Source of the DNA: Funiculus sociatus GB2-C1
Lineage (GTDB): Bacteria > Cyanobacteriota > Cyanobacteriia > Cyanobacteriales > FACHB-T130
DNA: 64,000 bases
Direction: 5' to 3'
Assembly: GCF_039962115.1 (NCBI RefSeq)
Contig: NZ_JAMPKJ010000024.1
Coordinates: 1-64,000 of the forward strand
Both the position numbers and the translations under genes were made by a program. Shown here one piece after another: positions 10,045-58,095 of this stretch (within the stretch, counting starts at the first letter, position 1; each line of letters opens with the position of its first letter). The notes below the pieces were generated by a model. That model saw only the letters and a list, made by a program, of their open reading frames with translations, made no database searches and was not told the DNA's origin.

Positions 10045-10076
10045 AGCAATCCTCTCTCCTTTCTTCGTGGAGAGCA

Positions 10077-10095: not shown

Positions 10096-10124
10096 TTAAA
10101 AAATATCGAAAATTGTGACATTTT

Positions 10125-10148: not shown

Positions 10149-10190
10149 CGCCAACCATAAGATCAGGGGTCAGATGGGGCGCGATCGCAT

Positions 10191-11496: not shown

Positions 11497-11638
11497 TAAG
11501 GTGTTTCAAAAATAGGAATCCCTATATTTTCGAGATACCCGCTAGATATCAAATCCAATATCGCAAACTTGGCGAATTCAAAGATGAAAGCAAGCGATCG
11601 CTACTAATCTGCTTTTTGCTTAATTTTCCGGCTAGAAC

Positions 11639-12028: not shown

Positions 12029-12193
12029 AAGAATATTGTGTGTAAAAGTTTTCTTTATTGTGGCAGAGGAGAGGGATCGCGCTTGCAGTCTGGGGAATGC
12101 GATCGCGGTTGCCATGTGGGGATGCGATCGCGCTTAGTTCGCCTAGATATAGAAATTCCAGATGGTGAGAGCTTAGAGATATGCGATAACAAC

Positions 12194-30765: not shown

Positions 30766-32163
30766 TGTCAACTTAAGAAAAAGCAGCGTTTGTCAAGGGG
30801 TTGTTCAAGCTGGGGATAAGCTGAGGATCGCAGCATTGATTTGGGGCTGATGGGCAACCCTCGCAATGGCAATCCGGATTTAAGACGGGCAGTGAATGTG
30901 CCTGCCCCCAGCAATGAGGAACTCGAAGCGCGACTGCGCGACTGGCTGACTCCTGGCACATACGCCAATCTCAAAACAGTCAAGGACAAGACCCGGAAAT
31001 TGCGCGACCGGGTGCTGACTTTACCAGTGATGGTCGCCATTGTGTTGAGTCTGGTGTATCGGCAAATGAGCGGGCTGAGCGAGGTATTACGAGTCCTCGA
31101 ACAGGAGGGACTTATGTGGGCCGAAGCGCAGTCGGTCAGCAAACAAGCCCTGTCGAATCGATTGCGAACCCTGCCTGGGGCATTATTTGCCCAACTGTTC
31201 GAGCAGGTGATAGCGCCAATGCAGCAACTTTCGGCAAGCGGTGACGGTACCGCGGGCGTGGCAGCCTGTGCAGCAACGGTTTGGGGCAGTGTGGTTAGCT
31301 GATGGCTCGACCTTGGAAGCGGTTGCCAAAAGACTCGACTCGCTCCCAGCGCCAGCGTCGGGATTAGGCGGCAAGATGATGATGATCGTTGAAGCCTTTT
31401 CCCATCGCCCTGTGGCGGCATGGTACAGTGCCGATGCTCACGCGCACGACCAAAATTGGTGCGATGCGCTCATTGAGCGGTTACCCAAAGGCGGTTTACT
31501 GATTTTCGACTTAGGGTTCTTCAACTTTGTCTGGTTCGATGAGTTCACAGCAGCAGAAAAATACTTTATCACCCGTTGGCGACAGAAAACGGCTTTTAAG
31601 GCGATCCGGGTTCTCAGCCAAGGGCAGCGTCATCGCGATGAAATCCTTGAACTCGGACAGTATCGTTCTAATCCTTGCCGTTATCCGGTGCGTCGCATCT
31701 CGGTGTTGTGGGGCAAAACTTGGTAGACCTATCTCACCAATGTCCTCGACCCGAGCGAGTTGTCGCCTCAACAGATCTGTGACCTCTATCGCCAACGCTG
31801 GCGGATTGAAGAAGCGTTTCTGCTCACCAAACGATTGCTCGGTTTAGCCTATCTGTGGGTGGGTGGCAGCAATGGGGTGCAGATTCAGCTCTATGCTACT
31901 TGGATTTTTTATGCGGTGTTGACCGACCTGTGTGCCGAAGTCGCCGTTGCATTAAACAAACCCTTAGAGCGTATTTCTGTGGAAATGGTCTTTCGCAGTT
32001 TGTATCACTTTAGCCGCGCTCGCCAACAAGGACGTGCTGATGCACTGGTGCCATTTTTGGTTCAACATCATCGCTCCTTTGGTCTGGTCAAAGCCGAGCG
32101 TCAGCGACATCGACGCCTTCATGCCCAATCGCTTGACATCTGGGCTTTGACCTTAAGTTGACA
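30766..32163. mobile_element. Insertion sequence with an IS4-type transposase, inactive
   Basis: About 1.4 kb bounded by the inverted ends TGTCAACTTAAG (30766-30777) and its complement (32152-32163). The single transposase gene inside is broken twice. Outside these ends the flanks themselves are inverted repeats of each other (see repeat at 30741-32188). Only one copy is present in the window. Confidence 0.75.
30841..32161 (+). pseudogene. IS4-family transposase, frameshift plus stop codon
   Basis: Three fragments rebuild one DDE transposase of about 440 residues. Fragment 1 (30841 to about 31240) carries the N-terminal helical domain; a frameshift near 31225-31245 leads to fragment 2 with the first Asp (VWLADGSTLE) and second Asp (LLIFDLGFFNF); a TAG at 31724-31726, between KTW and TYLTN, interrupts it; fragment 3 carries the YREK-type signature LYRQRWRIEEAF with the catalytic Glu and the C-terminal region. 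Both defects must be repaired to give activity, so the element cannot move itself. Confidence 0.85.
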
Positions 32164-32377: not shown

Positions 32378-33178
32378 TTATGGACGCAGAATTGGAGCTA
32401 CCAGCGCCAATACTTCATCACTTGTGGCGAAGCCATCAAAGGCTTCACCACTAAACGGAATTGGGAAACCAGTCCGATTTTCGTTGTAAATCACCTCATT
32501 TTGATTTCTAATCCAAGGTCGGATGTCGGCATTGAGCAGAGTTTGCCGCAGGTATCGGAAGCCCGCAGCGTGCCGCGCCTCTACAGTATGAATTTCTAAG
32601 GCTCCGGCTAACACAGTTTTGCCAGCTTCTCCAGCTGCCAGCAAGTTCTGTACTTGGCCTTTATAAGCTGCTACTCCCAAATCTTCAACGTATTGTCCGG
32701 CGAGTAAAAAATCTGCAAGATTAGTAAATGGATTGCGGCCTAAGATGGCGTTGTAATTGGGGTTGGCAGGAATAGTAATCGCATCTGGGTTGCCTCCCAA
32801 AGCTGTCAATACAGCGGACAAGTCAACAACGTGTTGAGCCTCATCTTGTCCATAAGATGCGATCGCATTCTTGGCTGGTTGGGGAGCGTTCGCCAAACCC
32901 CCGTTCTGGGTTGAAGCGATCGCTTTGACGTAAAAATCAGCTTCCAGCTTTTCTAGGGTTAGGGCATATTCCACCACTTGTCGGGGTGTCAGCACTGCGC
33001 CTTGAGCATAGGCAGGTGCAGCTGGAGCGATGAACACTGATAGAAATATTAAAGAAACCAGCACTACAGCTTGTACAGCGGTGGCGATGGGGCGGATGAG
33101 TCGGAGGTTAAAGCTCTTTGAGTGCATATTTTCTGTCGCCTGCTGTGCTGTTAGGTTTGAAAAGATTTTCATTGTCAA
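32378..33178 (-). CDS. Exported Ferritin_2-family protein, copy 1
   Basis: A 266-residue protein with an N-terminal signal region: basic residues, then AVVLVSLIFLSVFIAPAAPAYA ending in a plausible signal-peptidase site near residue 58. The mature part is a ferritin-like four-helix bundle (PF13668 type) with all four di-iron ligand positions: Glu in LEKLEADFY, DEAQH, VEDLGVAAY and VEARHAAG. Role unknown; such proteins are often linked to stress or iron in the periplasm. The next gene upstream is a paralogue 16 bases away, so they form an operon. Confidence 0.82.
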   Translation of the reverse strand: MTMKIFSNLTAQQATENMHSKSFNLRLIRPIATAVQAVVLVSLIFLSVFIAPAAPAYAQGAVLTPRQVVEYALTLEKLEADFYVKAIASTQNGGLANAPQPAKNAIASYGQDEAQHVVDLSAVLTALGGNPDAITIPANPNYNAILGRNPFTNLADFLLAGQYVEDLGVAAYKGQVQNLLAAGEAGKTVLAGALEIHTVEARHAAGFRYLRQTLLNADIRPWIRNQNEVIYNENRTGFPIPFSGEAFDGFATSDEVLALVAPILRP

Positions 33179-33193
33179 ATACCTCTATACATC

Positions 33194-33904
33194 TCAAGCG
33201 ACGAGCGCCCCGTTGATGGGGTTGTTTAGAAGCTGGAAAGAGCTGACAATAGCCACAATTTGTTTGGGCGTGTACAACTCATCGTATGCCCGTCCCTTAA
33301 AGGGGTTGAGTTCAGGTACTAAGTCAGGGTCTTTGATTATGCGATCGCTATCGCTTTCTGTAGCAGGCCGACCCACCAACCCGCGTACCCCCGCCGCGTG
33401 ACGAGCTTCAACACTCACAATCGAACCAGCCGCCAGCAAGTAAGTAGGATTTTTTAAGCTTGTTCCCGCGCCATTGTAGGCGTGTACGCCCACGTCCTCT
33501 AATGTCAAAGCTGTATTCAAAATCGTGGTGCGGTCGGCTAGTACGCCAGCCAACCCAGCTTGGTTGAAGTTGAGGTCTCTGGTGTTGAATGTGGCATCCG
33601 AGCCGAGTACGCTACGCAAAAATTTTACGTGTTCGCCTTCGTGAATACCCAAGGCTCTCATGTAATCGAGTTCTCTGGGATTGGTAATTTTGCCAGATTT
33701 GACAACGGATAGATAAAATGCTGCTTCCAGTTCCTCTAGCAATAAAGCAAAGTTGAGGATACCAATGTCGTCAGCATTAAATGTCAGGGCTTTTGTGGTG
33801 CGACTAGGCTGTGCAGTTAATGCTTTTGGGATGGTCGTCAAAGCTAGTGCGCCAAAACCGCAAAGGCCCATTTTTAACAGTTTGCGCCGCGAGGAAAATG
33901 TCAT
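33194..33904 (-). CDS. Exported Ferritin_2-family protein, copy 2 (Tat signal)
   Basis: A 236-residue protein. ATG at 33904 is preferred over 33943 because AGGAG sits about 8 bases before it and it puts SSRRKLLKMGLCGFGALALTT at the N-terminus, a twin-arginine signal that implies export in folded, cofactor-loaded form. The mature domain is ferritin-like with di-iron ligand candidates in LEELEAAFY, HEGEHVKFL, LEDVGVHAY and VEARHAAG. It is first in a two-gene operon with the related gene downstream. The two share about a third of their residues by eye. Confidence 0.82.
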   Translation of the reverse strand: MTFSSRRKLLKMGLCGFGALALTTIPKALTAQPSRTTKALTFNADDIGILNFALLLEELEAAFYLSVVKSGKITNPRELDYMRALGIHEGEHVKFLRSVLGSDATFNTRDLNFNQAGLAGVLADRTTILNTALTLEDVGVHAYNGAGTSLKNPTYLLAAGSIVSVEARHAAGVRGLVGRPATESDSDRIIKDPDLVPELNPFKGRAYDELYTPKQIVAIVSSFQLLNNPINGALVA

Positions 33905-34011
33905 AAGATTGCTCCTAATAGAGGTGCGCTCAATTGCCTGCAAATAATTCCGAGGTCAGCGTTTTTGCGTAGGCGTTGAGTGAAGGGAAATGTAATCGCA
34001 GGGGATGAGAG

Positions 34012-35103: not shown

Positions 35104-35694
35104 ATGCCTCCTGACTCTAGCGATCGCACTCCCAAAACCCCATCGACGAGGATGGATAGAGACTTATTTCAAGCCCTCAAAGCTGGTCAATCCTCTGCTC
35201 TGGGGATTCTCTACGACCGCTATGGCTCTCTTGTATATGGGTTAGCACTGAAAATTTTGAGAAATCCTCAAGAGGCAGAAGACCTAACGCAAGAGATTTT
35301 TCTGAATCTCTGGCGTAGCGATGGTTACAATCCCGCTCGTGGTTCTCTTAGCAGCTATCTCACAGTTATGACGCGATCGCGTGCTATTGATAAACTTCGC
35401 TCTCGCGGCACTTCTGTGAAGTTTCTGGAGCGTTGGCAACACGCAATGACTGCTGAAACAAGAACGGACAATCCTTTTGAACAAGTGTCTTTGGGAGAGC
35501 GATCGCAACAAGTTCGAGCTGCTTTGGCGGAACTTTCAGAAAATCAGCGTCAAATATTAGAAATGGCATACTACGAAGGCCTGAGCCAATCAGAAATTGC
35601 CACTCAACTAGATATTCCTTTGGGAACGGTCAAAACTCGCGCACGAACGGGTCTACTAAAACTGAGGCAAACTCTACGAGAATTTATTAAATAG
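35104..35694 (+). CDS. ECF-type RNA polymerase sigma factor
   Basis: A 196-residue sigma factor with only regions 2 and 4. Region 2: YDRYGSLVYGLALKILRNPQEAEDLTQEIFLNLW and the RSRAIDKLRS promoter-melting part. Region 4: ALAELSENQRQILEMAYYEGLSQSEIATQLDIPLGTVKTRARTGLLKLR. The ATG at 35152 (MDRDLFQALKAG) is an alternative start that fits the family better; the extra 16 residues are Ser/Pro-rich. It is followed after 7 bases by an anti-sigma gene, the usual pair for SigK/RskA-type signalling. Confidence 0.88.
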   Translation: MPPDSSDRTPKTPSTRMDRDLFQALKAGQSSALGILYDRYGSLVYGLALKILRNPQEAEDLTQEIFLNLWRSDGYNPARGSLSSYLTVMTRSRAIDKLRSRGTSVKFLERWQHAMTAETRTDNPFEQVSLGERSQQVRAALAELSENQRQILEMAYYEGLSQSEIATQLDIPLGTVKTRARTGLLKLRQTLREFIK

Positions 35695-35701
35695 TTGTAT
35701 T

Positions 35702-36472
35702 ATGACCGAACCTTTAAATCCTGAACATTTAGAAGAATTAATGACAGGTTATGTCCTCGGCGACCTCAGCCCTGAAGAAGCCCTGGAATTTGGGCAACTC
35801 CTGGCAGAAAATCCGCAATTGGCTACAGAGGTAAGTAGTTTGCAGGAAGCACTGGAAGTGTTGCCCTATGCTTTACCTGAAGTAACTCCTCCTCCTCACT
35901 TGCGTACAGCCATTCTGGAAGCTGCCAATAGTTCTCTAACTCCTATCTCAACACCAAAAAGGTTTTCTTTACCTTGGAGCAAAATTGCTGCTGGTGCGGC
36001 TGCACTTTTAGCTCTTGCTTTAGGTTTAGATAATTACAATTTGCGGCAGCAACTGAAAGTTGTGCAGGCTCAGAAAGATGTAATTGAGGTGTTACAACAG
36101 CGCAATACTCGCGTAATCGAGGTGTTACAACAGCGCAATACTCGCTTATTTACTCTCACAGGAACAGAAAATGCAAATACTGCCTCTGGTAGTATAGCGA
36201 TTAATACTAACGAACAAAAAGCGGTTATTGTCTTTCAAAACCTCCCCGCTTCCCCTGCTGGTCAAATATATCGACTTTGGGCCATAGCTGATGACAAAAA
36301 GATAGCTTGTGCAAATTTTGATGCAAGTCAGCAGGGAACAGTTTTAGCGGAATTTACCATTCCTGCCGCTGCTTGTAGTTCTACAAAATCAACTTTAGCT
36401 GTCACCTTGGAACCATCTACACTACCTCCACAACCAGTTGGGCCGGCCGTAATGGTAGAAAGTAGTTTGTAA
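35702..36472 (+). CDS. Membrane anti-sigma factor (RskA-like)
   Basis: A 256-residue anti-sigma factor. The N-terminal zinc-less anti-sigma domain (LEELMTGYVLGDLSPEEALEFGQLLAENPQLA) binds the sigma factor; a single membrane helix follows at about residues 95-110 (IAAGAAALLALALGL); the C-terminal RskA domain (from about 150, GSIAINTNEQKAVIVFQNLPASPAGQIYRLWAI) faces the periplasm. Between them a coiled stretch contains an exact-length duplication, VIEVLQQRNTR twice. Regulated proteolysis would release the sigma factor (family knowledge). Starts 7 bases after the sigma gene. Confidence 0.86.
   Translation: MTEPLNPEHLEELMTGYVLGDLSPEEALEFGQLLAENPQLATEVSSLQEALEVLPYALPEVTPPPHLRTAILEAANSSLTPISTPKRFSLPWSKIAAGAAALLALALGLDNYNLRQQLKVVQAQKDVIEVLQQRNTRVIEVLQQRNTRLFTLTGTENANTASGSIAINTNEQKAVIVFQNLPASPAGQIYRLWAIADDKKIACANFDASQQGTVLAEFTIPAAACSSTKSTLAVTLEPSTLPPQPVGPAVMVESSL
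36080..36145. repeat. 33-bp tandem duplication in the anti-sigma gene
   Basis: Units 36080-36112 and 36113-36145 differ at one base (ATTGAG vs ATCGAG). The duplication is in frame and lengthens the periplasmic juxtamembrane coil by 11 residues. Confidence 0.85.
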
Positions 36473-36629: not shown

Positions 36630-37661
36630 ATGATGGTAAATCTCAATTCCAAGGCTTCTAGTTCGCTTTGCAAATCCAAGACTTTCAATAATCCAGAGTG
36701 CTTTATTGAGGGGTGGTATTGGGCGATACCTTCTCATCAGCTTAGGGTGGGTGAGGTAAAACCTGTAACTCTCATGGGAAGGGAACTAACGATTTATCGG
36801 GGAAAAGATGGGAAAGCGATCGCACTCAATGCGTACTGTCCCCACATGGGCGCACACTTGGCGGAAGGAACGGTTGAAGGTAATAGCATCCGCTGTTTAT
36901 TTCATAACTGGAAGTTTGACGAAGCGGGGACGTGCGTAGACATTCCATGTATGGAAAAACCGCTGGACGTAAGAGTGCGGACGTGGCATACAGGGGAAAA
37001 ATACGGCATGATTTGGGTGTGGACTGGGGACACTCCTAAACACCCTTTGCCTTTTGTTCCGGAACTGGAAGATGATGAATGCGATAGCGCGATCGCATCG
37101 AGTTTTGTAAAGAACTGTCACCCCAATGTTGTGATGATTAATGCTATCGACGCGCAGCATTTCAACACAGTTCATAATTTACCCTTAAAAATCGTTTTTG
37201 AGAAAAACGATATTAACGAAAACGCGATAACTTTCAGCAATACTACTCGCGGCGGCGAAGATTCTTTTTTTATAAAGTTAATCCGCCCGTTTTATAAAAA
37301 AGAAGTAACTTATAGTATGTGCTACTGGTATGGAAGCACTGGTACAGTCACCGTAGGCCCAGATTTTCTTCACTTTCATATTATGTTTGCTTTGCGCTTG
37401 CTTGAAGGAGGAAAAGCGGAAGGTAAAACTATCCTGATTACTAAGAAGCGGCCGGGTATATTAGGATGGGTTTTCAATCGAGTTGTGCTGTGGTTGACGA
37501 AGATGGTAGGGAACTATTTCGCTAAAGGTGATACTCAGGTTTTTCAGACGATTAAGTTTGATTTCCAGACTCCGACTAAGGCGGATATGTCGATTATTCA
37601 GTTTATTCAGCACGTTGAGAAACAGAACGCGATCGCTTGGGGAACGTGGGAAGCAGAGTGA
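36630..37661 (+). CDS. Rieske non-haem iron oxygenase A
   Basis: A 343-residue Rieske-type oxygenase, first gene of the oxidative cluster. The [2Fe-2S] motif is CPHMGAHL ... CLFHNWKFD (CxH and CxxH). The catalytic mononuclear iron site is DAQHFNTVH (D-x2-H-x4-H). Among known families the layout (single polypeptide, hydrophobic C-terminal third) is closer to KshA/DAF-36-like oxygenases of steroid or lipid substrates than to ring-hydroxylating dioxygenases with a beta subunit. Substrate unknown. Its TGA overlaps a GTG start of the next gene (GTGA), so the two are probably co-translated. Confidence 0.85.
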   Translation: MMVNLNSKASSSLCKSKTFNNPECFIEGWYWAIPSHQLRVGEVKPVTLMGRELTIYRGKDGKAIALNAYCPHMGAHLAEGTVEGNSIRCLFHNWKFDEAGTCVDIPCMEKPLDVRVRTWHTGEKYGMIWVWTGDTPKHPLPFVPELEDDECDSAIASSFVKNCHPNVVMINAIDAQHFNTVHNLPLKIVFEKNDINENAITFSNTTRGGEDSFFIKLIRPFYKKEVTYSMCYWYGSTGTVTVGPDFLHFHIMFALRLLEGGKAEGKTILITKKRPGILGWVFNRVVLWLTKMVGNYFAKGDTQVFQTIKFDFQTPTKADMSIIQFIQHVEKQNAIAWGTWEAE

Positions 37662-38626
37662 ATAACCCAAAATCACGCGATGTTTTGGGAAGTATCAATT
37701 TCCCCAAAAATCGCTTTAAAATCGCAACTGCTGGGTTTGACTTACCCCATGTTTGCTCTGACGACAAGCTGCGTCGCGTATTATCAGGTGCTTTGAAAAG
37801 TCGTTTGGCCAATCATTCAGTATCCCCAGAATACGACAGTTATCAATATTGGAATGCCCATTATTTCGGTCTTCAGAAAGTAAATATTTTCCAAGATTCT
37901 AGCGTTGAGGAGCAAGCAGAAATTCTGCGACTATGCAGTTGCGGACTGTTAGAAGAAGCCTACTTTGTGGAGAAAGCTGGCGTAGGTTACATGGCGAAAA
38001 TGGTGCTGCTTGCAGAAACCACTGAGGAACGTATGCTATACGGACTCTTCAGCGCTGACGAAGTAACTCACCTCTCCCAGATTAGCAGCTTCCTGCCAAT
38101 TCAGGAACCTGTCGGAACAGATAACGCCTTCTTACGCTTCCTGGGAGACTTGGTGGAAACCGAGGATAAAACAGTTCTCTTATTTGTGATTCAAGTTGTA
38201 CTTGAAGGGTGGGGTTTAAGCCATTACAAAAACCTTTCCAAGGACTGTTTAAATCCTCATTTGAGTAAAATTTTAAATCAGTTCCTGCAAGATGAAGCAC
38301 GTCATCATAGTACCGCCGTCAATTTGTTTAATCAAAGGCAAGTTTTAGAAACGAGTCGAGAGGTAATAATTGAGAGCCTTGCACTATTCTTGCAGATGAT
38401 CCAGGTAGGCCCTCAGAGTGTTGTCTCCGCAGTAGAAAAAGTTAAAGGTCATTTGTCTCGCCAGCAGAAAGTGAGGATTTTCTTGGAAATTGAAACAGAA
38501 ACTCATAGCGGTACTCGTCTCAATTTCCTGCGTTCCCTGATGCGAGATCCAAAAGCCGGAATTATTGTTCAAGAACTAGAGGAACGGGGAGCATTTTTAC
38601 CTTTTCCCCCAGAAAAGTGTGTATAA
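37658..38626 (+). CDS. Ferritin-like di-iron oxygenase/oxidase candidate
   Basis: A 322-residue protein from GTG at 37658, overlapping the previous stop by 4 bases; a longer frame reaches back to 37637. Helical throughout, with a full di-iron set: Glu100 (or Glu105) in LLEEAYFVEK, E135-x2-H138 in SADEVTHL, Glu183 in VLEGWG, and E213-x2-H216 in QDEARHH. This E, ExxH, E, ExxH order defines ferritin-like oxidases such as R2 and the AurF/CmlI N-oxygenases. No signal peptide, so it is cytosolic. Likely oxidises an intermediate made by the Rieske enzymes; the reaction is unknown. Confidence 0.72.
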   Translation: MNNPKSRDVLGSINFPKNRFKIATAGFDLPHVCSDDKLRRVLSGALKSRLANHSVSPEYDSYQYWNAHYFGLQKVNIFQDSSVEEQAEILRLCSCGLLEEAYFVEKAGVGYMAKMVLLAETTEERMLYGLFSADEVTHLSQISSFLPIQEPVGTDNAFLRFLGDLVETEDKTVLLFVIQVVLEGWGLSHYKNLSKDCLNPHLSKILNQFLQDEARHHSTAVNLFNQRQVLETSREVIIESLALFLQMIQVGPQSVVSAVEKVKGHLSRQQKVRIFLEIETETHSGTRLNFLRSLMRDPKAGIIVQELEERGAFLPFPPEKCV

Positions 38627-38660
38627 CTTTATATCTTTCACTAAGAAACCTCTCCCCCAG

Positions 38661-38683
38661 CCCCTCCCCTACGAGGGGAGGGG
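38661..38683 (+). terminator. GC-rich hairpin between the two di-iron genes
   Basis: A perfect 10-bp stem (CCCCTCCCCT and complement) with an ACG loop, 35 bases after the stop of the first di-iron gene. It lacks a T run. It may attenuate or protect the transcript, or split the cluster into two units. Confidence 0.45.
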
Positions 38684-38779
38684 AGCAAGAAGGAAGAGGA
38701 AAAAAGAGGAAATAAAAGTCCGGTTCCCCTTCCCTTGCTCTTAACAGGGTTAGTTTTTAACTTGCAAAAAATTATTTGT

Positions 38780-39955
38780 ATGACTTCAACAATCCAAGAA
38801 CCCAAAAGCAATACACTTCTAGAAAACGAAAAAGTTTACCGAAAGCTTCAGATTAATTATACACGCTGCAAGCAACAAGATCATACCCAGTTACTTGACG
38901 AAGCAGCAGCGTCTTTCCGATATGAAGATTGCCAAGATGAATACTGGAATCCAAAGGAATTTTCCTTACTTTACGGTACTCCCTTATGGGAACAATCTAG
39001 CGCAAGTCAGAAGATAATTTTAAATCAACTTTATTGGGTTGCATATTACTCGCAAATTATCTCTGCCGAAATTGCCACAATCTACTTTAATCAAACTAGC
39101 GCCGCCGGATTGTATGCTCAAGAAGACTTTCGTTTAGTCTGCGATATTCTAGACCTTGAATCTGGGCAAGAACGCGCTCACATAAACGCCTTTAAAACAA
39201 TTTCTACGCAGGTAGAAGCTGCCCTTTTTGGAAAGCGAGTCTTCAGCTACCCGATGCGCGGGCCTTTTAATGAGACGATGATTTTTGCTGATACCAACGC
39301 TTTAAAAGCGTGGTGGAAAAAACTTCAACTTCAGTGCTTCGGACTCCTTAGTGCGGGAAACACCTTTCTGGCTTGTCAATACTTTACGGTGCGGGGTGTG
39401 CGGACGCTGAACGGTAAGCTAGTGCAGCACAAACTCAGCAATTACTATCAAAAACATCCCAACCAAGAAAAAGCTCCTATTCCCGCAAAGATTTCCTACT
39501 ATCACTTCATGGATGAGAGCTTTCATTTTAACAGTTCTACCATCCTCTCCCATGATGTAATAAATTGCCTGAAATCGCCGACAGCTTTTGAAAGTTTTGT
39601 GGCGAATTTAGGGCTACGTGGTTGTCAGAAAGATCATTATCACTTCTCAGCAGCGATCAATGGTATATTTTGGTACGATCCTGCCTTATATCCAGCGATC
39701 TACGAAGTGATGCGATCGCGTGTTTTTGGGATGAGCGATCGCGAAGCTAAAGAAATGATCAAAAAATGCTTCACCCAAGAATCCGAAGGCTTAAATCGCA
39801 GCTACGAAACCCACAAAGAAGCCATAGAATCATACAAAGTATACCTCGAAAAAATTAATTATACTTGGAAAACTAACAAAGAAATGTCTATCATGTCTGC
39901 CAATTCCATCCCCAAATACCTCGCCACCCAAAAAAAGGCAATTGGTAACTGGTAA
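38780..39955 (+). CDS. AurF-like di-iron protein with one ligand replaced
   Basis: A 391-residue protein from ATG at 38780 (the upstream start at 38735 adds 15 unlikely residues). Helices carry Glu97 (SAEIATIYF), E131-x2-H134 (ERAH), then H242-x3-E246-x2-H249 (YHFMDESFH). This matches the p-aminobenzoate N-oxygenase AurF pattern (E, ExxH, E, HxxxExxH) in order and spacing. The glutamate expected in the third helix is missing: the aligned region FLACQYFTVRG has only Cys199/Gln200. It may therefore bind one metal, use another ligand, or have a non-oxygenase role. Genes on both sides encode iron enzymes. Confidence 0.65.
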   Translation: MTSTIQEPKSNTLLENEKVYRKLQINYTRCKQQDHTQLLDEAAASFRYEDCQDEYWNPKEFSLLYGTPLWEQSSASQKIILNQLYWVAYYSQIISAEIATIYFNQTSAAGLYAQEDFRLVCDILDLESGQERAHINAFKTISTQVEAALFGKRVFSYPMRGPFNETMIFADTNALKAWWKKLQLQCFGLLSAGNTFLACQYFTVRGVRTLNGKLVQHKLSNYYQKHPNQEKAPIPAKISYYHFMDESFHFNSSTILSHDVINCLKSPTAFESFVANLGLRGCQKDHYHFSAAINGIFWYDPALYPAIYEVMRSRVFGMSDREAKEMIKKCFTQESEGLNRSYETHKEAIESYKVYLEKINYTWKTNKEMSIMSANSIPKYLATQKKAIGNW

Positions 39956-40009
39956 GCCGGTTTCTCGTTTCTCCTCTGCGTTCTCTCTTGCCTGTGCAGT
40001 TTTTTCCTT

Positions 40010-41059
40010 ATGAACCAGCTACAAAACCAAAACACCCAACCACTGTTAAAGATGAAAATCTTTAACAACTGGGATATTATTGCCAAAGGCTGGTACATAG
40101 CGTGTCCTAGCAGAGAACTTCCCCCCTTAAAAGCAAAATCCTTAGAACTTTGCGGACAAAGAATAGTAATATTTCGAGGACAAGACGGAAAAGTTCGTGC
40201 CTTAGATGCCTATTGTCCGCATATAGGAACTGACTTAGGAATTGGACGAGTAGATGGAAATTTTATTCGCTGCTTTTTCCATCATTGGGGATTTGATGGC
40301 GAAGGTAACTGCAAGGATATCCCTTGTGAAGCAACCATTCCTGAAAAAGCCCGTCTTCAATCTTATGCCACCGAAGAAAAATACGATCTAATTTGGATTT
40401 ATCCAGATGCCAAAGCTCCCGAAGGCGTAGCAGAATTCGACGAACTCAAAGGCAAATCAATTGTAACCATACATGACAAAGCCTTTGAGCGCAGTTGTCA
40501 CCATCATATTTGCATGATGAACGGAATTGATGCTCAACATTTGCAAACAGTCCACAAAGTAGACATCAAAATGGAGCTATCTTTAAATGAAAATAAATCT
40601 GGCACGTTGATTGATTTTACACTCAAAGGCGAGTTGCCCAAAACCACGCGCCGAGAACGTATTGGAGGAAAAATTTTGGGCGCTCAGTATGAATATTGCA
40701 TGAGGTATGCAGATGGCTGTATAGGACTTTTGACAACCATGAAAAATGTGAAGCTTTTTCCTTCACTGCACATGATTTACGCTTATACGCCTATAGAACC
40801 TGGCAGAACTCGTATTCAGCCTATTTATGTAGCTGAGAAGAGAAAAGGGCTTTTCGGTTCGTTTATGACGTGGCTATTACTTTTTTTCACCAAGTTGGGA
40901 TACTACGCTTTGCGTGGTGAGGATGGAAAAATATATGACAATATTCGGTTTAATCCGAATGCGTTGCTGGCTATTGATACGCCTTTAGTAAAGTATATGC
41001 AATATGTTAATCAGCTTGAACCTTCGGTATGGTCAAGAAAATTAACTGACACACAGTAA
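40010..41059 (+). CDS. Rieske non-haem iron oxygenase B
   Basis: A 349-residue paralogue of Rieske A. Rieske cluster: YCPHIGTDLG ... CFFHHWGFD; mononuclear iron: DAQHLQTVH. The N-terminus IAKGWYIACPSRELPPLKAKSLELCGQRIVIFRGQDG and the C-terminal hydrophobic segment FMTWLLLFFTKLGYYALRGEDG parallel Rieske A (FNRVVLWLTKMVGNYFAKGDTQ), so they arose by duplication and probably act on related substrates. It begins 54 bases after the AurF-like gene; a CTCTGCGTTCTCT short repeat lies just before it. Confidence 0.85.
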   Translation: MNQLQNQNTQPLLKMKIFNNWDIIAKGWYIACPSRELPPLKAKSLELCGQRIVIFRGQDGKVRALDAYCPHIGTDLGIGRVDGNFIRCFFHHWGFDGEGNCKDIPCEATIPEKARLQSYATEEKYDLIWIYPDAKAPEGVAEFDELKGKSIVTIHDKAFERSCHHHICMMNGIDAQHLQTVHKVDIKMELSLNENKSGTLIDFTLKGELPKTTRRERIGGKILGAQYEYCMRYADGCIGLLTTMKNVKLFPSLHMIYAYTPIEPGRTRIQPIYVAEKRKGLFGSFMTWLLLFFTKLGYYALRGEDGKIYDNIRFNPNALLAIDTPLVKYMQYVNQLEPSVWSRKLTDTQ

Positions 41060-41202
41060 ATAAGTAAAGCAAAGTAGTTTTGTAATAATTAATTTAAAGA
41101 ACAGAGTCACGGAGAAGGTAGAGGAAAGAAATTATAAAAAATTTGTGGTGGTTGAGTTGAGGTAAAGAAACCAATCCTAGAATTAGCAATCAACTAAAAG
41201 CA

Positions 41203-41490
41203 ATGAGTGAGCAATGTTGTGTAGTTAGTTTTCCAGGGACAAATTATGCACCGCTAACTCTGGAAAAAAATGAGAATCTTTCGGAACATCTGACGGTGCA
41301 AAATTCCCCGGTACTTTTTGGCTGCCGTACCGGAGTTTGTGGGACTTGTCTTGTAGTTGTAGAAGGTGATATTCCTCCTCCAAGTGAAGAAGAAAAGGAG
41401 GTTTTGGAAATTTTGACTTCGGGTGACATTCGAGCAAGGTTAGCTTGTCAACTGAATTTGACGAACCATATTGCGATCGCACTCTTGTAA
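41203..41490 (+). CDS. Plant-type [2Fe-2S] ferredoxin
   Basis: A 95-residue ferredoxin with the cysteine pattern C-x4-C-x2-C in FGCRTGVCGTCLVVV and the fourth Cys in RLACQLN. It is the electron donor expected for the three Rieske oxygenases of the cluster. It differs from photosynthetic PetF in its N-terminal half and by the spacing insert PPPSEEEKEVLE. No dedicated reductase gene is present, so it is probably reduced by photosystem I or a shared FNR (inference). It lies between Rieske B and Rieske C. Confidence 0.85.
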   Translation: MSEQCCVVSFPGTNYAPLTLEKNENLSEHLTVQNSPVLFGCRTGVCGTCLVVVEGDIPPPSEEEKEVLEILTSGDIRARLACQLNLTNHIAIALL

Positions 41491-41562
41491 ATTAAAAATC
41501 CAAAATTAAAAATTAAAAATTTACAAGACACTTTTTTAATTTTTGATTTATTGTGAAAAACA

Positions 41563-42585
41563 GTGAAATTTGAACATTTTTGGTACGTTGTCGCACTCAG
41601 CGAACATCTGACATCTAATACTGTGCTGGAACGCACAGTTCTGGGTGAATGGCTGGCAATTTTTCGAGATGAAGAGGGAAAACCTGTTGCACTACGCGAT
41701 CGCTGTATGCACAGAAACAGCCGTCTCTCGCGGGGAAATATCTGTCAGGGAAAAATTCAGTGTCCCTATCACGGCTGGGTTTACGACAAAACTGGCAAGG
41801 TGGTAGCTGTTCCCGCAGAGGGAGAAAATTTTAAGGCTACTAATGCTCGTCGCACGCAGAATTATGACACAAAAGAGCAGGATGGATACGTGTATGTAAG
41901 GCTGGCGCAGAATCCAGAGGAGGAATTTGAGCCTTTTGCAATGCCTTACTATGATAAGCCTGGATGGGAAACGGTTCGGGTAATTAACCGCTTCCGGAAC
42001 AATGTTACTAACTGTGCGGAGAACTTTATTGATATTCCTCACACTGTTTCTGTTCATCCTGGGGTATTTCGCACGCCTCGCTGTTCAAAGTTGGAAATGA
42101 CGGTAGAGAGACGGAATGGATCGGTTTTTGCCGAATACCGGAATGAAACTACTAACCTCGGCTGGTATAGCCGTTTTTTAAACCGAGGCGGTTACGAAAT
42201 TCGACACACAGATAGCTTTCATATGCCGAATGTCACCAGTGTAGAGTACGACATGGGGCCGAGAAGAAGGCTTTTTATTACCAGTCAGTCTGTACCCGAA
42301 GCAGAAGACTCGACTCTCGTTTATACAGATGTGACTTTCAACTACGGAATCTGGAGCAAAATTGCTCGTCCTTTTGTGCGTTGGACTGCACAATACATTA
42401 TCCGTCAAGATGTGGAAATTTTGGGTATTCAACAGGATGTAATTGAAAAATATGGGACTCAGTTTGCGAATACTCCCGCTGATACCATCCACCTTTTTGT
42501 TGAATCTATCCGGAATAAGATTGCATCTGGCGAAGATCCTAGAACGCTATCTGATAAGGCAGTTAAAGTAAATTTTTGGGTTTAA
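41563..42585 (+). CDS. Rieske non-haem iron oxygenase C
   Basis: A 340-residue Rieske oxygenase with a GTG start, from a different branch than A and B. Cluster motif: DRCMHRNSRLSRG ... CPYHGWVYD; mononuclear iron site: NCAENFIDIPHTVSVHP (D-x2-H-x4-H). The N-terminus FEHFWYVVALSEHL resembles vanillate demethylase/phenoxybenzoate-type oxygenases. Single-component alpha-only enzymes of this type do hydroxylation, demethylation or desaturation; which one is unknown. It follows the ferredoxin by 72 bases; the spacer is a set of AATTAAAA-type repeats. Confidence 0.85.
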   Translation: MKFEHFWYVVALSEHLTSNTVLERTVLGEWLAIFRDEEGKPVALRDRCMHRNSRLSRGNICQGKIQCPYHGWVYDKTGKVVAVPAEGENFKATNARRTQNYDTKEQDGYVYVRLAQNPEEEFEPFAMPYYDKPGWETVRVINRFRNNVTNCAENFIDIPHTVSVHPGVFRTPRCSKLEMTVERRNGSVFAEYRNETTNLGWYSRFLNRGGYEIRHTDSFHMPNVTSVEYDMGPRRRLFITSQSVPEAEDSTLVYTDVTFNYGIWSKIARPFVRWTAQYIIRQDVEILGIQQDVIEKYGTQFANTPADTIHLFVESIRNKIASGEDPRTLSDKAVKVNFWV

Positions 42586-42657
42586 AGATTGTTGAGGCGA
42601 AGAATTCAAAGTTGTTAGTTAAAATTCCAAAATTCACCAATTACCAATTACTTTTTT

Positions 42658-43392
42658 ATGGGAGTTTTTGCTGCATTTGTAATTTTGATGACGCTGACTG
42701 CTAGTAATGACCGCAGTTTAACAGCACTCCGATCTAGGAAATTTGAAGACTGGGTTCTCGATGTTGTGGGTTTGTTTTTTCAGGGCATTCTCATACCCAT
42801 CTTGCAAGGTACAGTAGTTTACCAACTTTACCACTATCTTTTACCGAGCGATCGCGCTTTATTTGTGCCTCCAGTGGCAGCATTTGTCCTTAGCTTTGTT
42901 GTTGTAGATTACCTATACTACTGGAACCATCGCCTGCTCCATAGTCGATGGCTATGGAATCTGCATCTGGTACATCATACCAGCACCGAAATGAATGTTC
43001 TTTCTACCTCTAGAAATACCCTGTGGACAAGTTTTTTAATTATCTACTTGTGGGTTCACGCTTTGTTTATTTATTTGCTACAAGATCCCACGTGGTACAT
43101 TGCAGGTATTAGCCTCAGTTCAGCTTTGGACTTGTGGCGACACAGCACAACGACACCCAAACCAAACTCCGCCCTTTATTGCTGGCTGTCGATTTTCCTC
43201 ATCTTACCCCAGGATCATGCTTGGCATCATGCCAGTGAAAACTTTAGCGGAAACTATGGAGCAAATTTAAAGCTTTGGGATCTGATGCACGGTACTTATT
43301 ATAAATATGATAAGGCACCGAAATCTTTGGGAATTAAAAGTAATTTAAGCCTAAACCAAAAATTATTTTATCCCTTTTCAAAGCCAGAGTAA
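42658..43392 (+). CDS. Fatty acid hydroxylase / sterol desaturase superfamily membrane enzyme
   Basis: A 244-residue membrane di-iron enzyme. The eight-histidine signature is complete: HRLLH (HxxxH), HLVHH (HxxHH) and HAWHH near the C-terminus, with an additional His-rich loop. About four hydrophobic helices flank the His boxes. Family members hydroxylate or desaturate lipids such as fatty acids, sterols or carotenoids. Its presence in the cluster suggests a lipid-like intermediate. 72 bases after Rieske C, same strand. Confidence 0.85.
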   Translation: MGVFAAFVILMTLTASNDRSLTALRSRKFEDWVLDVVGLFFQGILIPILQGTVVYQLYHYLLPSDRALFVPPVAAFVLSFVVVDYLYYWNHRLLHSRWLWNLHLVHHTSTEMNVLSTSRNTLWTSFLIIYLWVHALFIYLLQDPTWYIAGISLSSALDLWRHSTTTPKPNSALYCWLSIFLILPQDHAWHHASENFSGNYGANLKLWDLMHGTYYKYDKAPKSLGIKSNLSLNQKLFYPFSKPE

Positions 43393-43477
43393 AAATATAA
43401 AAAAGTAGGTTGCGTTAAGCGTTAAGCCATAACTCACCTGATAAGGATAGTGCGTCACTCTAAAAATCCCAAATTAA

Positions 43478-44092
43478 ATGACTTTTCTCAGTGTAATACT
43501 TTCATTTTTCCCCGCCATAATCATCTTGCTAGCTGTTTCGTCTTTCCTCTGGGTTTGTTTCTCACCAGGAATCTTTAGCATCTTAACTTTGCTTTTTTCT
43601 CTGTACGGATTTCCACTTTTGGTATATCGGATTCATGAGCTTTTTTACCCAATCAAAGAAGGTATTAGCTATCTAGGCACAAAAGAGTATTCACCTTGGT
43701 GGGGAAGTCACCAAATCCAAGTTATATACATCGCCTTTCCTGCACTAGAAACATTACTTCGCTTAATTCCTGGTGCATTTTCCATTTGGCTTCGCCTCTG
43801 GGGTGCAAAAGTCGGTAAAAGTGTTTACTGGACACCACAACTAGAAATCGCAGATCGCGGATTAGTTGAAATAGGCGATCGCGTAATTTTCGGACACGGA
43901 GTTGGAATTTATTCGCACATCATAAAACCTAGAAAAAATGACTTAATGCTGTATGTAAAAAAAGTTAAAATCGGCACCAACGTATTTTTAGGAGCTTGGA
44001 ATCATGTTGGGCCCGGAGTTGCAGTTGAAGACGAAACCTATGTTCCAGTTGCTACTCATTTATATCCGAACAAAAAATTTTCCAAAGATTAG
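43478..44092 (+). CDS. Membrane-anchored hexapeptide-repeat acyltransferase-like protein
   Basis: A 204-residue protein. Two N-terminal membrane segments (IILLAVSSFLWVCF and FSILTLLFSLYGFPLLVYRI) precede a short left-handed beta-helix from about residue 105 (LWGAKVGKSVYWTPQLEIADRGLVEIGDRVIFGHGVGIYSH). This resembles the LbH domain that follows the condensing part of some acyltransferases or peptide synthetases (Pls/EpsL-like). A His in FGHGVGIYSH could be catalytic. It may transfer or hold an acyl group activated by the GH3 enzyme encoded next; this is inference. Confidence 0.6.
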   Translation: MTFLSVILSFFPAIIILLAVSSFLWVCFSPGIFSILTLLFSLYGFPLLVYRIHELFYPIKEGISYLGTKEYSPWWGSHQIQVIYIAFPALETLLRLIPGAFSIWLRLWGAKVGKSVYWTPQLEIADRGLVEIGDRVIFGHGVGIYSHIIKPRKNDLMLYVKKVKIGTNVFLGAWNHVGPGVAVEDETYVPVATHLYPNKKFSKD

Positions 44093-44161
44093 GATTTATC
44101 AAAAAGTTGTGTAGCTACCGAAACCTACTTTTAACCTGTTATTTACGGTTTATTCCTCATT

Positions 44162-45712
44162 ATGATGCACCATATTATCAACCTCTTCGGAAACCTTCTC
44201 GCTCCTGCTGCTCAAAATTTTTTTCATGCACTAGATAATCCTCAAAAGATGCAGCAATCTGTTCAACAAGAGATTGTATACCGTCTTGCCAAGAGCGAAT
44301 ATGGCAAATCTTTAGGTATCAACTCTATTGCTGCTGATTGGCACCACATTCCAATTGTTGAATATCAAGATATTCACGAATGGGTTGAGAAACAGAAAAA
44401 AACTAAAGCTCCAATTCTTACACCTGACCCCATACTTTTTTACGAAAAAACTTCCGGAAGTAGCGGCGCAGCTAAATGGATTCCTTACACACAATCTCTG
44501 CGCTCTTCATTTAATCATATGTTCTGTGTTTGGGCGCATGACCTAATTCAGCATGGGCCAAAATTTTCCACTGGCAAGATATACTTTTGTATTTCCCCTC
44601 AGCTTGGGAATGATGCTACCGCAGAGTCAGGAGTAAAAGTTGGATTGAAGGATGACTCGGAATATTTAGATGGATGGTTGAGACAGTTTTTGAGTCCTTT
44701 TTTAGTTTCGCCTCCCGGAATAAATAGCCTCCGCAATCCAGAAGATTTCAAAAATAAACTTTCTCAAACTTTGCTACTTGAGGAGAACCTAGAAATTATC
44801 TCAATTTGGAGTCCAACTTTTCTAAAAGTTCACCTAGACTATATCCAAGAACATCAGAAACGGCTTGTTTCTGAACTTGGGAATAAGCTATCAGTAGAAC
44901 GTCAAAAGTTACTTTTAAAACCAGAAATACCCTGGACAAAGCTTTGGCGAGAACTCAAGCTGATATCCTGCTGGGATAGTGGTAATGCTGCGGATGGTGC
45001 AGGATTTTTGCGATCGCTATTTCCTGGTGTCACAATCCAAGGAAAAGGGTTACTAGCAACTGAAGCGCCAATAACAATTCCCCTAATTGCGGCGCAGGGA
45101 TGCGTTCCGCTACTCGATGAGGTGTTTTTTGAGTTTGCGGATGAAAACGGGAATATCCACAGCCTGCACGAACTTGAGATGGGGAACGTCTATAAGATTA
45201 TTATTTCACAAAAGGGGGGTCTGTATCGTTATCGAATAGGCGATCGCGTCCGCGTTACCCATTTTTACAAAAATACACCTTGCCTGGAATTTCTCGGCAG
45301 AAGTGAGGAGATAAGCGATTTAGTTGGCGAGAAACTTCATTCTGAATTCGTGCGCGAAATTATCGAGAGTTTGCCGCTAGAAGGAACGTTTTTTAAAAGC
45401 TTAGTTCCTGCAACTTCCCCACAGGAACATTATATTCTTTTACTCGACACAGCCAAGCAACCTGCTGATGCGATCGCGCGACAACTAGATGATGCTTTGA
45501 TGCGATCGCACCACTATAAAAAAGCTCGGCTTCTAGGTCAACTTTCTCCGGTGCGAGTGCTTGTGTCAAGACAAATACCTGAAACTTTAACTATGTACAA
45601 AACCCAGTCTGGCAGCAAGTGGGGAGACTTGAAACACCAGCTTCTTGTCACCAACCCAATTGAAGAAAAGCTTCTAGTCGAGTTAGAAAAGCTTTCATAT
45701 ACCGTTGTTTAA
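44162..45712 (+). CDS. GH3-family acyl-adenylating enzyme
   Basis: A 516-residue GH3 (auxin-responsive promoter) family protein. The ATP-binding motif is FYEKTSGSSGAAKWIPYT near residue 95; the second is LLATEAPITIPL; the third is YRYRIGDRVRV. These match the plant GH3 and bacterial homologues that adenylate a carboxylic acid and join it to an amine (often an amino acid). GH3 proteins in bacteria are uncommon, and I know no product from this arrangement. It is the last gene of the cluster, 69 bases after the hexapeptide gene, and probably performs the final amide-forming step. Confidence 0.85.
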   Translation: MMHHIINLFGNLLAPAAQNFFHALDNPQKMQQSVQQEIVYRLAKSEYGKSLGINSIAADWHHIPIVEYQDIHEWVEKQKKTKAPILTPDPILFYEKTSGSSGAAKWIPYTQSLRSSFNHMFCVWAHDLIQHGPKFSTGKIYFCISPQLGNDATAESGVKVGLKDDSEYLDGWLRQFLSPFLVSPPGINSLRNPEDFKNKLSQTLLLEENLEIISIWSPTFLKVHLDYIQEHQKRLVSELGNKLSVERQKLLLKPEIPWTKLWRELKLISCWDSGNAADGAGFLRSLFPGVTIQGKGLLATEAPITIPLIAAQGCVPLLDEVFFEFADENGNIHSLHELEMGNVYKIIISQKGGLYRYRIGDRVRVTHFYKNTPCLEFLGRSEEISDLVGEKLHSEFVREIIESLPLEGTFFKSLVPATSPQEHYILLLDTAKQPADAIARQLDDALMRSHHYKKARLLGQLSPVRVLVSRQIPETLTMYKTQSGSKWGDLKHQLLVTNPIEEKLLVELEKLSYTVV

Positions 45713-51633: not shown

Positions 51634-54600
51634 ATGGCAGACCTATATTTTTCTGAGTATGTCGAGGGTAGCAGTAACAACAAAGCACTCGAAATCTACA
51701 ACGGCACTGGGGCGGCAATTGACCTCGAAGCAGCAGGTTATGCCATAGACATTTATTCCAACGGTAGCCCTACACCTATTCATACTTTCAACCTGACTGG
51801 AACCGTAGCAAATAGCGATGTCTTTGTCTTTGCACTCAATAACGGTACTAATCCAGCTATCATTGCCCAAGCTGACCAGCTGGATACCAATCAATTTAAT
51901 TGGTACAACGGCGACGATGCCATTGTGCTGCGTAAAAATACAACCATTATTGACGTAATTGGTCAGATTGGCGTAGACCCAGGCACAGAGTGGGGTACTG
52001 GGCTTACCAGTACGCAAGACAATACGCTGACTCGAAATCGAAGTGTAACGGCTGGAGATACCAATCCCAATGATGCCTTTAACCCCACCGCTGAATGGCA
52101 AGGATTTCTTGTTAATACATTCAACGGTTTGGGCAGCTACTATGCTACACCAGTCCTGAATAACTCTGGCTCTGTGACGCTGCCAGCTATTAATGAGGAT
52201 ATACCCGACCCTAACAACATCGGCACTAAGCTCTTTGATCTAATTAGTGGCTTAGTCACAGATGTTAATAATGACCCGCAAGGAATTGCCGTAACGGGGG
52301 TAGATAACAGCAACGGCATCTGGCAATACTCACTTGACGGCGGTAGCAATTGGACAAAGTTTGGTGCAGTGTCGGATACCAACGCAACAGTGTTGGGTTG
52401 GACAAGCTTGTATACAAGTCAAGTAGGTACTGCACCAAGCAGTCAAAGGCTAACGTTTGCAAATCTTAGCGGTGCCATTCAAACTGTGGGTAGTGGTGCG
52501 ACTACTCTCACTAGCCTTGCCAATAGCAACATATATACTGGCTACACTACATCGTCCTTTACCCTTGACCGAACCAAAGGCTACACCATCAACTTCAGTG
52601 TCAAAATCAACACTGAGGATCATAGCCCTGCCAGCGCACAAAAAAACCCCAGTCAAGATTCTATTGCAGATCGAGCTGGTTTCAGCATCATCGCTATTAG
52701 CTCAGACGGTCAGAAAGGTATAGAAATTGGCTTTTGGGATAATGAAATCTGGGTGCAGGATGATGGTGTTACGCCTGGTAATGGTTCAATTTTCACCCAC
52801 ACTGTCAATTCTGCCGAGCGCTATTTTGGCAGCACCACGACTTTAAAGGACTATTCCCTGTCGGTTCTAGGCAACAACTACACGCTTTACGCTAACGGTA
52901 CGCAAATTCTGAGTGGCTTGCTACGGGACTACACCGCCTTTGTGGGATCTATAGACCCTTACGAAACTCCTAACTTTATCTTTTTAGGAGACGACACCAC
53001 AAGTGCCTCTGCTAGTTTCGACTTGACACGGGTTGCAGTTCAGGTAGCAGAACCAAGAATCCGCTTCGTACCCAACGCCAACTACAACGGCACCACGCCA
53101 AATATTACCTTCCGCGCTTGGGATGGGACGGATGGGATTGTTAGCGGTACTACTGAGGTAAACGCCTCAGTAAATGGAGGTACGACACCATTTAGCAGTG
53201 CTAGCGAGACAGCCACAATTACAGTTAACCCAATCAACGATGCGCCGACGTTCGTGGCTGGGGGAAATCAAAATGCGATCGCTGGCTCTGGATTACAAAC
53301 TGTAGCTGGATGGGCAAGCAATTTCAATCCTGGCGCAACGGAATCAACTCAAAGTGTCGATAGTTACATAGTTAACGTCACTAGCAACTCTGGTATTTTT
53401 GCGACTCCGCCAGCAATTGACCCGCTGACAGGCAATCTTACTTATACTCCTACTGCAACAATTGGTACAGCTACTACAGCGACAGTTCAAGTCCAAGTCA
53501 AGGATAACGGCGGCACTGCTAACGGTGGTGTCGATACCTCAGTAGCGCAAACCTTTCAAATTACCGTCAACCCTGGAACACCGACAGTTAGCATCCAGGC
53601 GATAGATGCTGATGCAGCAGAAGCGGGCGCAAATACTGGAACTTACCAGATTACTCGTACTGGCAACACAACGGGCAATTTAACTGTAAAATTTGCCGTC
53701 AGTAATAACAGTGCCACCAGTGGTGACTACACCCTAACAGATAGTAACGGCAAAGCGATCGCTATCTCGAATGGAATTGCCACCGTCACTCTATTAGATG
53801 GACAAGCGTCTTTCAATATTACTCTTAGCGCAGTTGACGACATCCAAGCGGAGGCAGCTGAAACACTAAAGTTAGATTTAGTAGCTGACGCGGCGTATGC
53901 GATCGCATCTTCCCAAAATACCGCAACCGTCACCATCCAGCAAAATGACACGGTAGTCATTAACGCCAACGACAGCGGCGAAGGTTCGCTACGACAAGCA
54001 ATTATCAACGCGAACGCCCTTATTGGCACCGATACCATCGGGTTTCAAATTGGCAGTGGTTTACAGACAATTACACCCCTGTCAGCTTTACCTACCATCA
54101 CCGATTCGGTAATTATTGACGGCACTACTCAGCCTGGATTTTCTGGTACTCCCATTATTCAATTAAGTGGAAGTGGGACGGGTACTGGACTGGAAATTAC
54201 TGCGGGCAATAGTACAGTCCGTGGCTTAATTTTTAATGGTTTTCAGAATGGGATTGAGTTAAGCGCCGGTGGCAATAATGTTATTGCAGGCAACTTTATT
54301 GGGACGAATGCGGTGGGTAATACAGCCGCAGGTAACTCTGCCTGGGGGGTGTTTATCAACGGTTCCTCTAACAATATCATCGGGGGAACGACGGCAGGGA
54401 CGCGCAACATTATTTCCGGTAACAGTGTCGGTCTGTTCGTCACTGGTAGCGGGAATCAAATCCAAGGTAACTACATCGGGACTGATGTCACTGGTAATGT
54501 TGACTTGGGCAATAGTGCTGACGGTATAAGCATCCAAGGAACCAACAACATCATTGGCGGGACGACAACCGACGCACGGAACGTCATCTCCGGCAATAAT

Positions 54601-57600: not shown

Positions 57601-58095
57601 GACACCATTTCCGCTGGACTAGGAAACGACCAAATTTACGGTGATGATGGCAACGACACGCTAATTGGCGATATCAGCAATAACTTGGTTGCAGGTGGCG
57701 ATGACTTTATTTATGGCGGTACAGGAAGCGATCGCATCTATGGCAACGATGGCAATGATTTCCTCTACGGCGAGTCAGGAAACGATCTAATTTTCGGCGA
57801 TTCTGGCAATGACCTTCTCAGAGGCGGCTTAGGCAATGATGTGGTTACGGGTGGTACTGGACGCGATACTTTTGTCTTTGCCAGAGGCGAAGGCACTGAC
57901 ATCATCGGCGACTTTCAAATTGGTAGTGACTTCATTGGTTTAGCTGGCGGTTTGAGTTTGGGTCAGTTGTTGATTACACAAAGAAGTAGCCAAACTGTGA
58001 TTACTCTATCCGACGGTGAGGTTTTAGCAGCTTTGAATAATGTTAATGCTGCTACTCTCCAAAGCTATGCTGCCAGCACTTTTGTGACGATTTAG
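51634..58095 (+). CDS. Giant multidomain RTX surface/secreted protein
   Basis: A 2153-residue extracellular protein with no N-terminal signal peptide, so type I secretion by its C-terminus is expected. Order: a lamin-tail (LTD) domain, residues 1-165; a LamG-like segment at about 250-475; cadherin/Ig-like repeats; a Calx-beta repeat; a parallel beta-helix at about 775-1150 with the recurrent NNIIGGT unit; more Calx-beta repeats at about 1265-1770; repeats of the form EAG..A.F.VKLNS; RTX nonapeptides (GGxGxDxx) at about 1970-2080; and a conserved tail ending in VTI. Role: adhesion, sheath or Ca-binding matrix protein (inference). No secretion genes lie in the window. Confidence 0.85.

Follow-up and report, generated by a model that had tools for sequence, protein, structure and literature searches.

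Gene clusters that combine Rieske oxygenases with a homologue of the halogenase CylC were catalogued by Eusebio et al. in 2021 as the Rieske-containing CylC class, with 36 examples that were left orphan, no product being assigned (PMC8406957). These clusters occur mainly in Nostocales and Oscillatoriales and share two to four Rieske-domain proteins, one CylC homologue and a protein of the sterol desaturase/fatty-acid hydroxylase family, with neither a carrier protein nor a fatty acyl-AMP ligase (FAAL); fatty-acid intermediates and an untethered substrate were likewise proposed in that study (PMC8406957). In this study, we analysed a stretch of 64,000 nucleotides from Funiculus sociatus GB2-C1 (the window; contig C24 of a 6.5 Mb genome), in which nine genes at 36630-45712 encode three Rieske oxygenases (RieA, RieB and RieC), two ferritin-like diiron proteins (Fer1 and Fer2), a ferredoxin (Fdx), a membrane hydroxylase (FAH), a hexapeptide-repeat protein (Hex) and a GH3 enzyme. 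Judged by its genes, this cluster belongs to the Rieske-containing CylC class, which is known but orphan. We give about even chances to the reading that the Rieske/CylC/GH3 set makes an oxidised, perhaps chlorinated, fatty-acid amide without carrier-protein tethering.

Membership in the class and inheritance of the gene set

Pfam detects three Rieske-domain proteins in the locus, FAH belongs to the sterol desaturase/fatty-acid hydroxylase family (PF04116), and in our tree Fer2 falls in the Rieske/PriA clade of CylC homologues. Neither the list of open reading frames (ORFs) nor Pfam gave an AMP-binding (FAAL) or acyl carrier protein (ACP) gene among the nine. An original prediction, made from the DNA letters, had called the cluster undescribed, which the 2021 catalogue overturns. 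Its outline was sound: nine genes with short gaps on one strand, whose ORFs are indeed all intact and on the + strand in the order RieA-Fer1-Fer2-RieB-Fdx-RieC-FAH-Hex-GH3. Pfam bears out its family labels, the AurF-like and ferritin-like matches being weak, and eight of the genes are as listed in its title, but Hex, the eighth gene, was left out. The iron-site motifs that it had reported for five proteins are all intact and are kept in 58-80 relatives per gene; both ferritin-like proteins, however, and not just one, have a complete set of diiron ligands. Finally, the second of them had been taken as plain ferritin-like, and its kinship with the CylC-family halogenases was overlooked.

Gene order was compared across 80 named loci, many of which end at contig boundaries when they fall short of the full set. 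All nine genes stand in the order of the window in 22 of them, and 25 more have eight genes with only RieB displaced, RieB being the most often displaced gene among relatives. Because of this shared order, the comparison indicates that the nine-gene arrangement is not due to chance. The original prediction had named two outcomes that would speak against it, a published cluster with a known product and a lack of the gene order in other genomes. The order is conserved in many other cyanobacteria, and we found no product for the class in the open literature, although subscription journals could hold one.

We also asked how the genes are inherited in a class sample of 390 cyanobacterial genomes, in which Fer2 was counted as being of the cluster type at >=61% identity. 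Fer2 occurs in 28 genomes and the cluster-type GH3 in 29, and all 28 Fer2 genomes have both (hypergeometric 7e-42, uncorrected for kinship), which agrees with the predicted place of GH3 in the set. About 7% of the sampled genomes carry the set; Synechocystis-like, Nostoc, Calothrix and Planktothrix strains are among them. In two genomes of a genus that we call Synechocystis-like, by our own reading and not as a given name (G218 and G259), the genes lie at five separate sites (x1-RieA-Fer1-Fer2, RieB, GH3, RieC and FAH+Hex, x1 being described below), and the congeners G231 and G065 have none of them. Likewise, G107 has all tested genes and its congeners G087 and G129 have none. The Synechocystis 'PriA' form of the class is the same set, partly dispersed. 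GH3 was also found in each of eight more genomes whose loci are partial or unlinked. One of these genomes is a Planctomycetota bin (L192) with RieA, Fer1, a Fer2 of about 61% identity, Fdx and RieC, and with GH3 (45%) elsewhere in the bin; either lateral transfer or bin contamination may explain this case. Since the set is conserved and is kept together even when unlinked, it is well supported by the genome comparison that the nine genes form one operon-like pathway. This is in line with the single oxidative pathway that had been predicted, in a cluster that holds no polyketide synthase (PKS), nonribosomal peptide synthetase or terpene synthase.

To the described class we add GH3 and a GNAT-like protein, x1, as constant partners, the gain and loss of the genes as a set, a glutamine signature in the CylC homologue and an Mpo1-like neighbour. 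GH3 is never named in the main text of the 2021 paper (PMC8406957). The tenth core gene, x1, lies directly before RieA in most relatives and is held by 63 of the 80 loci. Pfam has no separate family for it, five of 32 members match the GNAT domain weakly, and a sequence search against solved structures gave no match. In the class sample it is present in 30 genomes, namely all 28 that have Fer2 and two others. The host genome has a divergent, unlinked copy on contig C63, which is 67% identical to the copy 3' of GH3 in another locus (L117). The Mpo1-like protein (136 residues; 2-hydroxy-fatty-acid dioxygenase family, E 8e-9) is encoded directly before RieB in 25 of the 80 relatives, and no such gene was found in the host genome.

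The CylC-family protein and its glutamine signature

Acyl chains are the substrates of CylC and NocO (PMC12101540, PMC8406957), and NocO is supplied with electrons by ferredoxin and a ferredoxin reductase (PMC12101540). Nine NocO residues are essential for chlorination, namely those of QExxH and HxxDExxH and two further residues including E252 (PMC12101540). Fer2 keeps eight of these nine (E112, Q145, E146, H149, H257, D260, E261 and H264). The helix-1 glutamate, QExxH and HxxDExxH are invariant across 41 aligned relatives, and both motifs are found in 80 of 80. Like these halogenases, Fer2 combines a predicted ferritin-like, AurF-type fold with QExxH, HxxDExxH and the helix-1 glutamate, and its chemistry would be driven by ferredoxin. 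Its Pfam match to AurF is weak and a sequence search against solved structures gave no match. An AlphaFold2 model built from 41 sequences (predicted local distance difference test score, pLDDT, 88.5) has AurF as its top fold match (Z 17.6, root-mean-square deviation 3.9, 288 residues aligned), followed by CmlI and R2 proteins; such Z values are common for helical bundles, and AurF was chosen for its agreement with the motifs, not for Z alone. The label of AurF-type N-oxygenase for Fer2 is weakened by the eight CylC/NocO residues that it keeps, among which the glutamine of QExxH replaces an aspartate of AurF.

The ninth residue differs. At the position of NocO E252, the helix-3 glutamate, Fer2 has Gln231 (numbered from 38735), and glutamine stands there in 80 of 80 relatives, whereas nine of nine comparison CylC-type proteins have glutamate, 30 residues before the aspartate as in NocO. 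In a maximum-likelihood tree, a branch with 100/100 support sets the glutamine proteins apart on one side, and its stem is long (2.95 changes per column). Fer2 groups there with members of the cluster, that of the Synechocystis-like x1-RieA-Fer1-Fer2 locus among them, and is separated from CylC proteins of the FAAL/PKS type (100/100). Of the nine NocO residues, E252 alone falls short of absolute conservation, a small subset having glutamine instead (PMC12101540). We newly propose, from the alignment and the tree, a link between this small subset and the CylC clade of the Rieske-containing cluster. Compared with CylC and NocO, Fer2 thus has a glutamine for an essential glutamate, no FAAL-ACP pair, about 30% identity and a clade of its own. 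Because glutamine replaces E252 in 80 of 80 relatives, we file Fer2 as a CylC-family protein of the glutamine subgroup, a putative and not a demonstrated halogenase.

A possible alternative, to which we give clearly less weight than to a halogenating pathway, is that the same lipid-amide pathway operates with a Fer2 that, having glutamine at this position and a substrate free of any carrier, is no longer a halogenase and hydroxylates, desaturates or N-oxidises that substrate. The complete split between glutamine and glutamate and the long stem favour this view, as does the fact that AurF, the closest fold, is an N-oxygenase. The NocO E252A variant moreover binds iron and yet gives no chlorination (PMC12101540). 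On the other side, glutamine is not foreign to this position in the NocO study, whose authors argue that E252 is not a metal ligand and place it near the proposed chloride site (PMC12101540); Fer2 has also lost none of the remaining eight, among which the glutamine of QExxH is specific to halogenases.

Other CylC-type proteins were seen in the course of this comparison. The same genome holds a second, unlinked CylC-type cluster (L093; G000:C15:2000-21900), in which an AMP-ligase and a small ACP-like protein are followed by a CylC-type protein of 469 residues (ORF 8812-10218), 31% identical to Fer2, and by a polyketide synthase of 1991 residues. Such a FAAL-ACP-CylC-PKS layout has been described for CylC halogenases of the columbamide/chlorosphaerolactylate type (PMC8406957). 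In two genomes of one family, genes for a CylC-like protein and a ferredoxin form a unit of two (L096:2740-4267 and L097:7879-9401), near which no FAAL, ACP, PKS or Rieske gene was seen. Its CylC-like protein is 35% identical to Fer2, is of the glutamate type and has its own branch in the tree; the unit is possibly a minimal halogenase-ferredoxin pair. The nearest named source of a Fer2 relative is Trichocoleus sp. FACHB-40 (98% identity).

The oxygenases, the GH3 enzyme and the proposed pathway

All three Rieske proteins and every relative checked have the Rieske motif (C-x-H / C-x2-H) and a D/E-x2-H-x4-H iron site (73/73 relatives for RieA, 59/59 for RieB and 61/61 for RieC). In RieA, C-x-H...C-x2-H lies at residue 70 and D-x2-H-x4-H at residue 174. 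The four-cysteine motif of Fdx, the presumed electron donor of the pathway, is kept in 71 of 71 relatives. FAH has the His boxes HRLLH, HLVHH and HAWHH at residues 91, 103 and 187, kept in 58 of 58 relatives. Three His boxes are common to FAH and OlsE-type hydroxylases, which are related at the level of the superfamily only, and we rejected OlsE ornithine lipid hydroxylase as an identity for FAH on its score, given below. The PF13668 match of Fer1 is weak, yet all 46 aligned relatives match this family, and its diiron set is invariant (E112, E142-x2-H145, E190 and E220-x2-H223, numbered from the 37637 start). A sequence search of Fer1 against solved structures gave chance-level matches to helical bundles only. 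Its AlphaFold2 model (pLDDT 87.9) resembles 4tw3, an aldehyde-deformylating oxygenase from cyanobacteria (Z 16.7), but is tied with R2 proteins, whose Z values lie within 1 of this, and therefore no reaction can be named for Fer1.

GH3 is the sole GH3 found in the host genome and, with its three domains and nucleotide motifs (SGSSGAAK, ATEA and GLYRYRIGD) present, is a predicted acyl-acid amido synthetase. The key residues S98, G99 and K105, A299, T300 and E301, and R356, Y357 and D361 are invariant among 21 relatives, and the nearest solved chains are those of plant JAR1/GH3.12/GH3.15. The closest tested bacterial precedent for amide formation is OlsH, a planctomycete GH3 with which it shares the family and the nucleotide-binding motifs and which converts free fatty acid, ornithine and ATP into N-acyl-ornithine (PMC12493201). 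In contrast to the OlsH system, there is no OlsI among the nine genes, and an identity of GH3 as OlsH lyso-ornithine lipid synthetase was rejected on its score, also given below. In a genome without a CylC protein (L060, G171; 9258-12735), a distant GH3 (31%) adjoins a fatty-acid desaturase and an x1 relative, which suggests an older GH3-GNAT lipid unit. Among the NCBIfam models, Hex weakly matches one for the terminal domain of Pls/PosA synthetases (E 2.6e-9).

The gene set, motifs, folds and shared inheritance are read from the sequences; the substrate, the order of steps, the chlorination and the amide partner of the pathway are what we infer. A fatty-acyl chain would be drawn from primary metabolism, with no dedicated carrier protein, and oxidised stepwise by the three Rieske oxygenases, FAH and Fer1. 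Fer2 would functionalise an unactivated C-H position, most likely by chlorination, with electrons from the clustered Fdx, as ferredoxin feeds NocO in vitro, and the chlorine may be kept or later displaced. GH3 would then convert the carboxylate into an acyl-adenylate and join it to an amine or an amino acid. Another acyl group may be added by Hex and, in most relatives, by the GNAT-like x1. It is plausible that the substrate is a lipid and the product an amide, the lipid character being suggested by the family of FAH, by the Mpo1-like neighbour in 25 relatives and by the acyl chains on which the known CylC enzymes act.

Several points weigh against this pathway. Besides the Gln231 and E252A findings, by which chlorination by the glutamine clade is only putative, as NocO needs a glutamate there, the cluster contains neither a FAAL nor a carrier protein, which the known CylC enzymes require. 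Scores against curated lipid enzymes are low, at 61.6 bits for FAH against its best NCBIfam model, OlsE (NF052566, cut-off 475), and 31.9 bits for GH3 against OlsH (NF052613, cut-off 620). Among solved structures, the Rieske proteins closest to these have polycyclic or aromatic substrates, and our analysis is one of sequence and predicted structure, in which the product is predicted from the genes.

An unlikely alternative is that a polycyclic or polyene substrate (carotenoid, hopanoid or tetrapyrrole) is tailored and that GH3 conjugates the resulting carboxylic acid. It draws on the solved chains nearest to RieA (SxtDIOX/SxtT and KshA) and RieC (NdmA, SxtDIOX/SxtT and DdmC), on a best NCBIfam match to a 4beta-methylsterol monooxygenase, and on three relatives that add a short-chain dehydrogenase and a UDP-glycosyltransferase, but these Rieske matches go no further than the superfamily, genes for building terpenes do not recur around the cluster among the relatives examined, and the families of CylC and FAH and the Mpo1-like neighbour indicate acyl chains. 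SxtT/SxtDIOX of saxitoxin, the nearest solved sequences to RieA, have the same Rieske and iron motifs. To our knowledge, none of the CylC-type, GH3 and fatty-acid hydroxylase families belongs to the saxitoxin pathway.

Annotation of the locus and biological significance

The nine genes are listed in Table 1. The longest ORF of Fer1 starts at TTG 37637, but its start is probably GTG 37658, which overlaps the stop of RieA. For Fer2, the longest ORF starts at TTG 38735, and the most likely start, by comparison with relatives, is ATG 38780, the same as theirs.

Table 1. Coordinates and annotation of the genes of the cluster in the window
Gene	Position	Strand	Annotation	Pfam match
RieA	36630..37661	+	Rieske non-heme iron oxygenase, 343 aa	PF00355 E 1.3e-23
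Fer1	37658..38626	+	ferritin-like diiron oxygenase	weak PF13668
Fer2	38780..39955	+	CylC-family diiron protein (putative halogenase), Gln subgroup	
RieB	40010..41059	+	Rieske non-heme iron oxygenase, 349 aa	PF00355 E 2e-23
Fdx	41203..41490	+	plant-type 2Fe-2S ferredoxin	PF00111 E 3.8e-9
RieC	41563..42585	+	Rieske non-heme iron oxygenase, VanA-type C-terminal domain	PF00355 E 3.2e-24, PF19112 E 9.7e-9
FAH	42658..43392	+	membrane fatty-acid hydroxylase superfamily, three His boxes	PF04116 E 1.8e-24
Hex	43478..44092	+	membrane-associated left-handed beta-helix acyltransferase-like, hexapeptide repeat	PF00132 E 1.2e-6
GH3	44162..45712	+	three-domain GH3	PF03321, PF23571, PF23572 all above cut-off

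Over the region, a sigma-70 promoter scan gave no more matches than in shuffled sequence and a terminator scan gave matches at about chance level; the operon structure is therefore read from spacing and synteny only. Upstream, on the + strand (35104-36472), a gene for an extracytoplasmic function (ECF) sigma factor is followed by one that resembles its anti-sigma factor and ends 157 bases before RieA. We left this pair out as a regulator of the cluster, as no such pair was seen next to the cluster in 29 loci of the class sample. Outside the cluster, two adjoining proteins with strong Ferritin_2 (PF13668) matches, both with a likely signal peptide, are encoded on the - strand (32378-33943). Judged by eye, 30841-32161 resembles a decayed IS4-type transposase split across several ORFs, and 51634-58095 encodes a protein of 2153 residues that resembles Calx-beta repeats followed by C-terminal RTX-like repeats.

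Tentatively, the set might stand for a widespread and so far unseen class of cyanobacterial lipids, a multiply oxidised and chlorinated or cryptically chlorinated fatty-acid amide made with a carrier-free CylC enzyme of the glutamine subgroup, in a pathway closed by GH3. As gain and loss affect the genes as one set, scattered or not, a comparison of strains that have it with strains that lack it, or knockouts in a tractable unicellular strain, should reveal the product directly. The enzymology also becomes testable, namely whether CylC proteins of the glutamine subgroup carry out chlorination and, if so, whether they can dispense with a carrier protein. Carrier-independent activity was named by the authors of the 2021 study as an important property for a biocatalyst (PMC8406957).

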